A stretch of DNA of 54,090 bases from Euzebya sp. (GTDB taxonomy: Bacteria > Actinomycetota > Nitriliruptoria > Euzebyales > Euzebyaceae), in the NCBI RefSeq assembly GCF_964222135.1, contig NZ_CAXQBR010000014.1:1-54090 (forward strand), in the 5' to 3' direction. The position numbers were made by a program, and so were the translations under genes. Below are positions 29,327 through 32,979 of this stretch, in pieces. A model generated the notes under the pieces. That model was not told the DNA's origin and ran no database searches. It saw nothing but the letters and a program-made list of their open reading frames with translations. How positions within the stretch are numbered: the stretch's first letter is position 1; each line of letters opens with the position of its first letter.

Positions 29327-31621
29327 TCAGCCGTCGACCCCGCTGGCGCGGACGGCGGCGTCGACCAGCGCGGCCACGGCCGTCTCGGCGACCGCGGCGG
29401 TGCCCCCGAGGACGCGCAGCCGGGCGACGGGCGATCCGCCCTCGGCCAGTGCCGCCACGACCTCGGGCGACCGTGCCGCGGGGGCCTCCGGGTCGGTGAG
29501 GAGCAGCACGTCACCGGCCGCGGCGACCGCCGCGCCCGCCGCGAGGGCGTCGGGCCAGTCCGCACCGGTCGCGATCCACGTCGTCGCGGACGAGGCGCCG
29601 TCGGCGACCAGCTGCGCGGCCACGGCGGCGGCCGTGCCGTACCGGGTCGGCCCGGCCACCCGCTCCGGGGCGAACCCGCCGGCCGTCAGCTCCTCGAGGA
29701 CGCCGTCGGACACCGCCGCGGGGCCGCCCACCACCACGGCCCGGGTGACGCCGAGGTCCGCCAGCGCAGCAGCCGTCGGGGCGGGCAGCTCGTCGCGACC
29801 CGTCAGCAGGATCGGCGCGCCGGTGCGCGCCGCCAGGGTCGACGCGGTCAGGACGTCGGCGAACGTCTCGCCGGAGGCGATCACCGCGGTCCCGTCGCGC
29901 AGCCCGATCGCCCGGGCGGCGGCAGCCGCGGTGGCGTGCCGGTCCGGGCCTGCCACGCGGGTGACCTCCACGCCGTCGGGCAGGCCGGCGAGCGCCGCGT
30001 CGGCCACCGCCGACTGCCCTCCGAGGACGACCACCCGCTCGGGCGCGAGGCGCGCGAGCTCCGCGACGGTCACCGCCGGCATGGCGTCCCGGCCGGTCAG
30101 CAGCAGGGGGGCGTCGAGGCTGGCGGCCACCGGCGCGCCGGCCAGCCCGTCGGCGAACGCGTCGCCGCGGGCGAGGACCACGACGGCGGCCCCGTCGGGG
30201 TGGCCGTCCCGGGCGATCGTGACCGCGGTCTCGTACCGGTCGACGCCGGCGAGGCGGTCGACGGCGGGTGGAGCGGTCGCCACCTGGGCGATGCCCACCT
30301 CGGTCGGGACGAGGCCCAGCAGGACGTCGAACCGCAACCGGCGGTCCTCGCCGACGGTGACCTCCGTCGTCTCGCCGCCGGTCGTGACCGCGTAGGTCGC
30401 GCCGGCCGGCAGGTCCGGTGGAGTGGCCACGGCGAGGGTGCCCGACCCCGAGGCGGTGAACCCTGCGGTGGAGACGCCGCCGAGCTCGGTCAGCGCGTCC
30501 CCGGTCCGGTCGATCGCGAAGTCCCAGCCGCCGACGGAGAACGCGGTGTCGATCGTCACGTGGTCGAACGGGCCGAGCGCGGCCGGGACGTCGGCCTGCC
30601 CGCGGTGGACCGCGCTGATCTCAGCCCACGCGTGGGTCTGCAGGCCGTCGTGCCAGTGCCACCAGTTGTGCCCGCCCTGTGGGACCGACAGGTAGTCGTG
30701 CTCGACGCCTGCCGCGGTGAGGGCCGCGTCGAACTGGTCGTTCAGGCCGGCGACCACGCCCTCGAGGGCCAGCCCGGCGGGGTCGTCGTCGGCGGGGGAG
30801 GGGCCGCCGGGCAGCCCGCGGTTGGTGCGGAACCACACGCGCGTCTGGTGGAGGTTCGCCGCCAGCCTCGTCGGGCTGTGGCCCTGCACCCGGACCGCAT
30901 CGAGGACCGGATCGCCCCACACGTCGGGGAAGGCGACGGCGAGCGCGGTGGTGTCCATCGCGCCGGAGAACCCGAACGCAGCCCCGAAGGTGTCGGGGTG
31001 CCGCGCGGCGTAGTGCATCGCCCCGCCGCCGCCCATGGACAGCCCGGCGACGGTGATGCCGGCGCGGTCCTCGCGGATGCGGAAGGCGTCGGCCAGCCAG
31101 GGCAGGAGCTGGCCGATGTGGTAGGTCTCCCACTCCGGGGCGCCGTACTCGCCGCCGCGGTGCCAGTCGGTGTACCAGCCCGGTTCGTCGGGGGTGCCGC
31201 CGTCGGGCATGGCGATCACGACGTCGGCGTCAGCGGACCACTCCTCCAGCGTGGTGGGCCAGCCGTCCTGCTTGGTCGTCCACCCGTCGTACCGGTCGCC
31301 GGCGCCGTGGAGGAGCAGCAGCAGCGGGTACTCGCGCAGCGAGGCGTCGTAGCCCGGCGGCACCAGGACCCGCACCGTCGTCTGGGCCAGCGGCGGGTCC
31401 AGGCGGGGGCTGTCGAAGGTGACGTCGACCATCCGGTCGCTCAGCCACTCGACCGCGACGGGTTCGAGAGGCTCGACGTCCGCCGCCGGCGCGTTCTCCG
31501 CGGCCACGGCCGGCTCGACCGCCTGCGGCGCGGCCAGGCCGGCCACGAGCACGGTGAGCAGGACGACCAGCACGACCGCCGACCAGCGACGACCACGGGA
31601 CAGGACAGGGCCAAGGGGCAC
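29327..31621 (-). CDS. Secreted esterase/Ag85-fold hydrolase with C-terminal CWB2 repeats
   Basis: A 764-aa exported protein. A signal sequence (about 10-40) precedes an esterase D/antigen 85-type alpha/beta hydrolase (about 60-350). The nucleophile is in GLSMGG (Ser about 195) and a candidate His in GGHNWWHW (about 318). A linker of about 80 residues leads to three CWB2 repeats (about 445-760) with RYETAV, FADGLAGAP and VVVLGG motifs. It is therefore fixed to the wall. Substrates could be polymer O-acyl groups or lipids; the MBOAT gene downstream favours the former. GTG start, with GGAG eight bases upstream. It diverges from the AAA ATPase gene. Confidence 0.88.
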   Translation of the reverse strand: MPLGPVLSRGRRWSAVVLVVLLTVLVAGLAAPQAVEPAVAAENAPAADVEPLEPVAVEWLSDRMVDVTFDSPRLDPPLAQTTVRVLVPPGYDASLREYPLLLLLHGAGDRYDGWTTKQDGWPTTLEEWSADADVVIAMPDGGTPDEPGWYTDWHRGGEYGAPEWETYHIGQLLPWLADAFRIREDRAGITVAGLSMGGGGAMHYAARHPDTFGAAFGFSGAMDTTALAVAFPDVWGDPVLDAVRVQGHSPTRLAANLHQTRVWFRTNRGLPGGPSPADDDPAGLALEGVVAGLNDQFDAALTAAGVEHDYLSVPQGGHNWWHWHDGLQTHAWAEISAVHRGQADVPAALGPFDHVTIDTAFSVGGWDFAIDRTGDALTELGGVSTAGFTASGSGTLAVATPPDLPAGATYAVTTGGETTEVTVGEDRRLRFDVLLGLVPTEVGIAQVATAPPAVDRLAGVDRYETAVTIARDGHPDGAAVVVLARGDAFADGLAGAPVAASLDAPLLLTGRDAMPAVTVAELARLAPERVVVLGGQSAVADAALAGLPDGVEVTRVAGPDRHATAAAAARAIGLRDGTAVIASGETFADVLTASTLAARTGAPILLTGRDELPAPTAAALADLGVTRAVVVGGPAAVSDGVLEELTAGGFAPERVAGPTRYGTAAAVAAQLVADGASSATTWIATGADWPDALAAGAAVAAAGDVLLLTDPEAPAARSPEVVAALAEGGSPVARLRVLGGTAAVAETAVAALVDAAVRASGVDG

Positions 31622-31712
31622 GATGGGCTCCGGGAACTCCGGGGGGACCCCGGTCGACTGCGGACCGCGAGACCCTACGCCGGCCCGGTCGTACGGTGCG
31701 AGTCAGGCGCAC

Positions 31713-31779
31713 GGTACTGGTACGAACCTGTCGCATCGAAGGTACTGTTACCAACCTGCGCTGCGCTGGTACTGTGACG
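31713..31779 (+). promoter_or_regulatory. Three operator-like GGTA-N4-TACC repeats overlapping a leaderless promoter
   Basis: Repeats begin GGTACTG at 31713, 31741 and 31768. Copies 1 and 2 continue as 18-bp elements ending AACCTG, and copy 2 contains the near-perfect palindrome GGTACTGTTACC. Spacing is 28 and 27 bp. Within copy 3, TACTGT (31770-31775) makes a good -10 with a TTACCA -35-like element (31748-31753) in copy 2. Transcription would then start at or next to the ATG at 31783. The binding protein is unknown. Confidence 0.65.
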
Positions 31780-31782
31780 TCG

Positions 31783-32979
31783 ATGCACAGATCGGTGCTC
31801 AACAACCCCTTCGCACCCGGATCCGGGGCTGTCCCGGACGTGTGGGTGGGTCGGGACGACGAGCTCGCCGACGTCGAGGCGCGGCTGGTACCGCGACGCC
31901 TGGCCGGGCTGTTCGAACGCGGCCGGACCTACCTCGGCGACCCGGGGCTCGGGAAGTCGGTCCTCGTCAACCGGATCGCCGACGACCGTGGCCGAGCCGG
32001 GGATCTGGTCGCGGCACCGCTCCGCCTCGCGCGCGGTCGTGATCCCCTGGCCGCCCTCGCGGCCGCCGTGCTGCCGCTCGTCCCTAGCGGGGAGCGGGTG
32101 GCGTCGCGCATCTCGCGGGCGGTCGATCGCGTGCGCGACGTCGGCCTGCTGGGCGCGTCGGTCGGCGTCAGTGCCCCGGCGGAGGACCGGTACACGGGGC
32201 TGGCCGAGCTCCTCGGATCCCTGGCCGCCCACGCCAAGTCGCTCGGCCGCCTGCTGGTCATCCGAGTCGACGAGGTGCAGAACCTGGCCGGCGACGAGCT
32301 CAGCCAACTGCTCACCGTGCTCGGTGATCTGCTCGAGGCACGGGTTCCGGCGTCGACCGCGACCGGTGAGGAGGTCGAGGAGTACCTGCCGGTCGTGGTG
32401 CTGCTGTCGGGCCTCCCCCAGTTCGCGCAGCAGGCCGAGGACGCAGGGGTCACCTTCTCGCGCCGCTTCGCGACGGCGTTCCTCGAGCCGTTCACCGACG
32501 ATGAGGTGCGCGCGGCTCTCACGTTCGCGTTCGCCGACGGCTACCCGGTCGTCGGCGACAGCGGGCCGACGTCGGTGCTCATGGAGCGCAGAGCTGGCGA
32601 GGCGCTGATCGAGCGGTGTCTGGGTGATCCGTTCCTCTTCCAACTGGCCGGCGCGGCCGCCTGGGACGCCGAGACCGGTCCGGTCATCACCGCCGACGAC
32701 GTCGCCGCCGGTTGGCTGCGCGTCCGACGGGAGGTCGACGCACACGTCCGCAACCGCGTCGCCGGCCTCACCGACTGGCAGCTGGAGGTGCTCACCGCCG
32801 CGGCGACCCTCGGCCCTGCGGCGGACGGCACCGCCATCGCCCGGGCGGTCGGGCGGACCCGCTCATCGGAGATCGGGTCCACCCTCCAGGGGTTGGTCGC
32901 GAAGCGCCTGCTGGCACACGACCCCGCGGGCTACCGCATCATCTCCCGGTCGCTCGCCGCGCACCTCAGGGCCAGCTGA
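31783..32979 (+). CDS. AAA family ATPase (Orc1/AAA_16-like) with winged-helix tail
   Basis: A 398-aa soluble ATPase. NPFAPGSGAVPDVWVGRDDE is the N-terminal signature of an actinobacterial AAA_16-like family. Walker A is GDPGLGKS (about 50-57), Walker B is LLVIRVDEVQ (about 160-170), and sensor-1-like VVVLLSGLP follows. The C-terminal 80 residues look like a winged helix (LEVLTAAATLG, then SSEIGSTLQGLVAKRLL). Family members are usually solitary genes of unknown function. Likely DNA-associated. The ATG at 31783 fits the leaderless promoter. It may be controlled through the triple repeats upstream. Confidence 0.82.
   Translation: MHRSVLNNPFAPGSGAVPDVWVGRDDELADVEARLVPRRLAGLFERGRTYLGDPGLGKSVLVNRIADDRGRAGDLVAAPLRLARGRDPLAALAAAVLPLVPSGERVASRISRAVDRVRDVGLLGASVGVSAPAEDRYTGLAELLGSLAAHAKSLGRLLVIRVDEVQNLAGDELSQLLTVLGDLLEARVPASTATGEEVEEYLPVVVLLSGLPQFAQQAEDAGVTFSRRFATAFLEPFTDDEVRAALTFAFADGYPVVGDSGPTSVLMERRAGEALIERCLGDPFLFQLAGAAAWDAETGPVITADDVAAGWLRVRREVDAHVRNRVAGLTDWQLEVLTAAATLGPAADGTAIARAVGRTRSSEIGSTLQGLVAKRLLAHDPAGYRIISRSLAAHLRAS

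Follow-up and report, generated by a model that had tools for sequence, protein, structure and literature searches.

A putative private operator of three conserved repeats at the promoter of an Orc1/Cdc6-like ATPase gene in Euzebya

Introduction

The described systems that most resemble the locus reported here involve ATPases acting at their own promoters. The archaeal protein Orc1-2, a DNA-damage-responsive regulator and not an initiator, recognises a hexanucleotide in the promoter of its own gene, and the motif is also present on the promoters of several other genes (PMC9738581). Type Ia ParA is an ATPase that autoregulates the plasmid partition operon through cooperative assembly on its own promoter (PMC8465637).

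We have analysed a window of 54,090 nucleotides from Euzebya sp. (the whole stretch of DNA under study), in which three short repeats stand just 5' of the start codon of an AAA ATPase gene; by analogy this system may work like Orc1-2 and type Ia ParA, with membership in either group not implied. It shares with Orc1-2 the combination of an AAA+ module and a winged helix, the predicted fold of the window protein matching Orc1/Cdc6, and differs from it in that Orc1-2 is archaeal with a motif that stands at several genes, whereas the window protein is bacterial, has its exact site at one gene, and has distant relatives whose upstream repeats are phased at 10 bp. ParA, by comparison, belongs to the deviant Walker ATPases and has ParB as its partner, whereas the fold predicted here is Orc-like and the 12 largest clusters of neighbouring genes showed no evident ParB-like partner. 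Among the papers listed for narrow queries of the open-licence PMC literature, none was recognised as describing these repeats or this architecture.

Results

The sequence GGTACTG occurs three times on the forward strand immediately before the ATPase start codon (ATG at 31783), at positions 31713-31719, 31741-31747 and 31768-31774, and the three copies at 27-28-bp spacing given in a preliminary description of the locus are thus confirmed, with spacings of 28 and 27. Extended to the right, the copies read GGTACTGGTACGAA (copy 1, 31713..31726), GGTACTGTTACCAA (copy 2, 31741..31754, at the -35 position) and GGTACTGTGACGTC (copy 3, 31768..31781, which includes a -10-like TACTGT), all on the forward strand. 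Copy 2 had also been called palindromic, and it is so as GGTA-N4-TACC, the extent being just 4+4 bp; copy 1 fits three of the four arm pairs and copy 3 two. The first 12 bases of copy 2 are one base off GGTAATGTTACC, a sequence that three homologues from other genera have in their upstream regions.

The TACTGT of copy 3 (31770..31775, forward strand), present also in copy 2, is of the TANNNT type, the actinobacterial -10 consensus, and ends 7 nt before the ATG; in the orthologue of a second Euzebya genome (G001) TACTCT ends 6 nt before the ATG. Because these -10-like hexamers end so close to the start codon at both loci, a leaderless start of the ATPase gene from the putative -10 is plausible. 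The earlier placement of the repeats over the -35 and -10 of a leaderless promoter therefore holds for the positions of copies 2 and 3, its leaderless part being plausible only. A simple sigma-70 scan of 31600-31800 found no promoter, and in-frame GTG codons at 31774 and 31696 are other possible starts. A structured RNA leader was rejected, since Rfam gave no match at gathering score in 31000-32500.

Clustering by itself is modest to moderate evidence for the repeats. The window as a whole contains five copies of GGTACTG on both strands against 2.05 expected, and 4 of 100 shuffles contained at least as many; when the 161 bp between the esterase gene and the ATPase gene were shuffled 20,000 times, a 7-mer of any kind occurred three times within 69 bp in 64 of the shuffles. 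Window-wide there are 24 such 7-mer triples, against a mean of 8.6 and a maximum of 20 in 60 shuffles, and no GGTACTG triple arose in any of the 60. Conservation is the stronger evidence, and the repeats are taken to be beyond chance because the orthologue keeps them at nearly equal spacing.

Four Euzebya genomes were searched: the window's own (G000), G001, G002 and G003. The closest homologue, at 69% identity, is in G001 and is the sole intact orthologue found; upstream of it lie three repeat copies spaced 28/28, two of which are the same as copy 3 of the window. The two loci are identical at 33 of 42 positions in the repeats, at 2 of 14 and at most 4 of 13 in the spacers, and at 20 of 60 in the 60 nt further upstream, and the gene start is conserved. 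By the preliminary description, orthologous loci that lacked the repeats would have told against them, and they are kept in this one intact orthologue. It had also drawn the repeats as facing the esterase gene, a divergent neighbour (29327..31621, reverse strand) encoding an esterase domain with three cell-wall-binding type 2 (CWB2) stretches. The neighbourhoods differ, however, the window gene standing beside the esterase gene and the G001 orthologue downstream of leuA; since this repeat-bearing orthologue follows leuA, the repeats appear to belong to the ATPase gene, an esterase operator is rejected, and the esterase gene, being absent beside the orthologue, is probably outside the system.

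A genome scan for the motif had been proposed as well, and we ran it on the four Euzebya genomes with GGTACTSTKACSWM, allowing a single mismatch. Exact 14-mers occur at this gene and at no other place: two in G000 (copy 1 being a one-mismatch match), three in G001, two at a remnant gene in G003, and none in G002, which yielded no intact orthologue of the window gene either. Away from this gene, single-mismatch sites come to 6, 8, 7 and 5 in G000, G001, G003 and G002, and those of a reversed control pattern 5, 23, 28 and 30 in the same order. The repeats thus look like a putative private operator rather than the box of a global regulator. Privacy of the sites is not absolute, given the similarity scores among 12 Euzebya upstream regions (shuffle 99th percentile 10, maximum 11): the best partner of the window is the intact orthologue (score 15, GGTACTGTGACGTCG) and its same-genome paralogues score 7 and 8, but the non-orthologous L038 and L036 score 11 and 10, and L035 and L036, paralogues in one genome, score 12 against each other.

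The G003 remnant of the window gene's orthologue (L037, G003:C1, near 4033360-4033633) has a match limited to residues 3-66 and has ACG as the codon at the orthologue's start position, with three repeats still recognisable. Its upstream region and that of G001 have a long, nearly identical stretch in common (score 68), and it is therefore not independent evidence. Another family member, in G002 (L007, G002:C4:52651-53675), is split over several reading frames, which suggests gene turnover.

The ATPase gene (P0001, 31783..32979, forward strand) encodes 398 aa, with an Orc1/Cdc6-like AAA+ module followed by a C-terminal winged helix as predicted. Its Walker A (GDPGLGKS) and Walker B (VIRVDE) motifs are intact, and K58, D163 and E164 are invariant in 28 aligned sequences, placing it among the AAA+ ATPases. 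Against the curated cut-off of 32.6 bits for Pfam AAA_16, the window protein scores 24.6 and its relative L029 28.2, with the relatives L064, L165, L183 and L136 above it at 52.7-68.2; weak Pfam ATPase_2 and nSTAND matches are also seen in relatives. An AlphaFold2 model built with 72 sequences has a mean pLDDT of 89, and in it we find the overall Orc1/Cdc6 fold, AAA+ and then winged helix. The best match in a second look is Aeropyrum ORC2 (1w5t; Z 22.1, rmsd 4.7, 344 residues), and Sulfolobus Cdc6/Orc1 in its complex with origin DNA (2qby) gives Z 20.0 and rmsd 7.1 over 333 residues. Matches to the archaeal Orc1/Cdc6 initiators run over the full length (Z 17.0-22.1) but at 13-16% sequence identity, the likeness being one known from the predicted fold. 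Archaeal ATPases score in the same range, with Z 19.8 for PABY2304 (2qen) and 19.3 for SSO1545 (2fna), which we take to be ATPase_2 / STAND-like and for which we know of no operator arrays. TnsC, NLR and CED-4 proteins are likewise among the structural matches, Foldseek ranks RuvB first by E-value, and a profile search of solved structures puts human Orc4 first (E 1.6e-8). The NCBIfam model TIGR02928 (Orc1/Cdc6; cut-off 181.3 bits) has no match to the window protein at E 0.1 and gives 17.4-23.6 bits with four relatives, below that cut-off.

The winged-helix region, at about residues 329-398 (32767..32976, forward strand; the boundary is approximate and was drawn from the secondary structure of the model and the full-length Orc match), is a credible DNA-binding part of the modelled protein, and for the winged helix of NLR and CED-4 proteins we know of no DNA binding. 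The third helix has a conserved (G/A)ST...L core, and specificity would therefore need variable positions or the wing.

Homologues are present in 26 of 61 genomes around that of the window, often with several per genome (up to six matches, fragments included), in 35 of 66 genomes of the class at E 1e-30, and in 170 of 296 of a phylum sample at E 1e-3, where many are weak partial matches inside much larger open frames. A broader alignment matches at least 585 related stretches in genome contigs, whose record titles name Actinomycetota, Pseudomonadota, Chloroflexi, Planctomycetes, Verrucomicrobia, Bacteroidetes, Chlamydiae and others. Two sets of upstream regions were compared, one from 106 members and a second from 109 of 122 further loci (80 of the at least 585 stretches included), 13 having been dropped for a start near the locus edge or an identical upstream region. 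Many members of both sets have evident inverted or direct repeats near the start codon, the repeats varying from member to member.

Of the 106 upstreams in the first set, 47 come out as repeat-bearing in a loose test (40 shuffles), where roughly a tenth would be estimated to do so by chance. By clade, using a rough N-terminal-motif rule that has possibly misplaced L021, L045, L097 and L125 among others, the counts are 13 of 32 (A), 2 of 19 (B), 16 of 33 (C) and 16 of 22 (D), clade B being at about chance level. Direct-repeat scores of at least 12 are reached by 22 of 106 upstreams against 38 of 1451 tiles from the same loci, and inverted-repeat scores of at least 12 by 7 of 106 against 13 of 1451, with weak rank tests (direct p 0.001, inverted p 0.03). 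In the second set a direct or inverted score of at least 11 is found in 29 of 109 upstreams against 59 of 2269 tiles (Fisher 6e-19), and the rank tests give 1.7e-7 and 3.6e-26. The tiles, taken from the same loci, are mostly coding, and some upstreams are related to one another, so that the counts are not fully independent, for which a reduction of the 109 to 103 corrects in part.

Autocorrelation of the second set has a strong peak at lag 10 (z 20.3), with z 6.1 at lag 9, 0.1 at lag 11 and 8.8 at lag 20. Lag 10 is the best lag in 53 of 109 of these upstreams, against 12 of 273 upstream regions of other genes (mechanically called ORFs, the regions probably being partly coding because of their 3-bp periodicity), and in 51 of 103 against 27 of 515 AT-matched tiles. 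Among 21 members with NPFTPxFG-like starts the peaks are at lags 9-10 and 19-20, and the decamers of many relatives include a TATAA-like -10 sequence. No lag-10 peak was seen in the window's own subfamily of 26 sequences; a 10-bp periodicity is therefore rejected for that subfamily and a 10-bp phase is not claimed for the window promoter, whose 28/27 spacing departs from the phase of its distant relatives. Other arrangements include long inverted repeats upstream of L070, L071 and L140, differing 20-bp G+C-rich tandem repeats upstream of the paralogues L124 and L125 of genome G300, and, at about 1335-1470 of L021, 13-bp tandem repeats of the GGTTGGCATCCAG type directly upstream of the homologue and beside an N run.

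Some types of site are shared across genera. GTAANNT(T/G)AC is found with 13 homologues in 13 genomes of 10 genera, Euzebya included, 12 of them being exact GTAANNTTAC and three reading GGTAATGTTACC, the sequence one base off copy 2. The looser GTNANNTNAC reaches 17 of 106 upstreams, where base shuffles would give 2.1. Of 18 members with the N-terminus PFTPG(F/Y), 14 have GTNANNTNAC, the exceptions being L008, L010, L012 and L041. A paralogue in the window's genome (L033) has the GTAANNTTAC type and not the GGTACTG type, and GTCANNTTGAC is a further type found with paralogues. As judged from these motifs, the putative operators track gene lineage more closely than the genome in which they lie.

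Housekeeping genes, leuA and a Glu/Gln-type tRNA synthetase gene, precede two of the Euzebya copies. Among the neighbours of the 109 loci, taken as mechanically called ORFs in the 12 largest clusters, there is no constant partner gene, a candidate rejected since the biggest cluster spans just 8 of the 109 loci (L151, L156, L167, L169, L174, L186, L189 and L214). We take that cluster, named from one sequence, to be DNA-methyltransferase-like, and a defence-island link through these neighbours is possible. None of the 12 clusters is evidently a partition or replication family. PADLOC profiles at E 0.1 have no match to the window protein, L029 or L005, and short matches in the ATP-binding region of L013 (best E 2.8e-4); with the window protein itself lacking a PADLOC match, a defence system is set aside only tentatively. 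Homologues also occur on 14 plasmid records, annotated there as 'ATP-binding protein', 'ATPase' or 'AAA family ATPase', and on two plasmids a ParA gene (near L137, Sphingobium) or a replication initiation gene (near L140, Cellulosimicrobium) is a few kb at most from the homologue.

Discussion

The three repeats are probably the private operator of the ATPase gene, bound by the ATPase itself so as to autorepress a putative leaderless promoter. This reading is favoured because the repeat blocks and the gene start, but neither the spacers nor the sequence further upstream, are conserved despite a differing neighbour; repeats on the own promoter that are both conserved and genome-exclusive are what an autoregulated ATPase should have, and they are found here with conservation in one intact orthologue. 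The archaeal Orc1-2, which has the same architecture and binds its own promoter, also counts for it. Against it are clade B, with no repeats beyond chance, the modest pass rate and weak rank tests of the first set, the single intact orthologue, the 28/27 spacing off the 10-bp phase, the incomplete privacy of the sites, the conserved core in the third helix of the winged helix, and the structural matches to NLR and CED-4 proteins. The preliminary suggestion that the ATPase may bind its own promoter is supported by conservation, exclusivity, the family-wide repeats and the predicted fold, physical binding being inferred. We envisage that the ATPase would bind the three repeats, probably as several protomers with one or more per repeat, that the bound protein would cover the -35 and -10 of its own promoter and so repress transcription, and that the ATP state or a signal would free the promoter by loosening this complex; we infer all three parts, namely binding by the ATPase itself, repression as its effect, and the switch.

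If instead a different host-encoded regulator bound the repeats and controlled the ATPase gene, copy 2 would fit well, as it resembles an ordinary dimer operator. Against this, the exact sites are confined to the one gene in G000, G001 and G003 and G002 has none, and paralogues within the window's genome differ in their sites, whereas homologues from other genera have a site type in common; we consider this rather unlikely. The Orc1/Cdc6 proteins being the best full-length fold matches, one might also see in the repeats an assembly, origin or centromere-like array on which the ATPase loads for replication, partition or DNA handling, with promoter control secondary. Arrays phased at 10 bp beside a DNA-binding ATPase are reminiscent of plasmid centromeres and archaeal origins, and the 14 plasmid records, with ParA near one homologue and a replication initiation gene near another, point the same way. 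The Euzebya copies behind housekeeping genes, the multiple matches per genome and the lack of an evident partition or replication family among the largest neighbour clusters make this quite improbable.

That the repeats are promoter elements only, a duplicated -35/-10 or an extended -10 and no regulator's site, would account for the -10-like TACTGT recurring in copies 2 and 3 and for the TATAA-like decamers of many relatives. It leaves out copy 1, which is upstream of the -35 and yet conserved, and the G+C-rich tandems of L124/L125 and the long inverted repeats of L070, L071 and L140 are unlike promoter elements, so we hold it to be very unlikely. Chance repetition in GC-rich DNA has in its favour the abundance of 7-mer triples window-wide, but the rarity of such triples in intergenic shuffles and the near-equal spacing conserved in the orthologue, whose footprint weighs heaviest, render it scarcely believable.

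The private-operator reading can be extended, tentatively and with somewhat more doubt than confidence, to the family as a whole: this widespread, unnamed group of bacterial Orc1/Cdc6-like ATPases may consist of self-addressed switches whose protomers stack on an own-promoter array, with a protomer at every helical turn (10 bp) in roughly half of the cross-phylum set. Each paralogue would evolve an array of its own, several near-orthogonal copies could thereby live side by side in one genome, and the window gene would be a variant of three units 27-28 bp apart. If true, a cross-phylum family of at least 585 stretches gains a testable activity, with a specific DNA site readable beside many genes, and an origin-recognition-like fold would serve in bacteria as a local transcription switch, akin to archaeal Orc1-2. 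The differing arrays would provide natural pairs of protein and site for decoding DNA choice by Orc-like winged helices, and from the 10-bp phase one would expect a defined protein-DNA assembly.

That the window gene is a phage gene was also considered and is rejected, as the window protein is without a match among 50,697 phage records. In the broader alignment, relatives are encoded on 42 IMG/VR contigs (L221-L262), some of which may be prophage borders.
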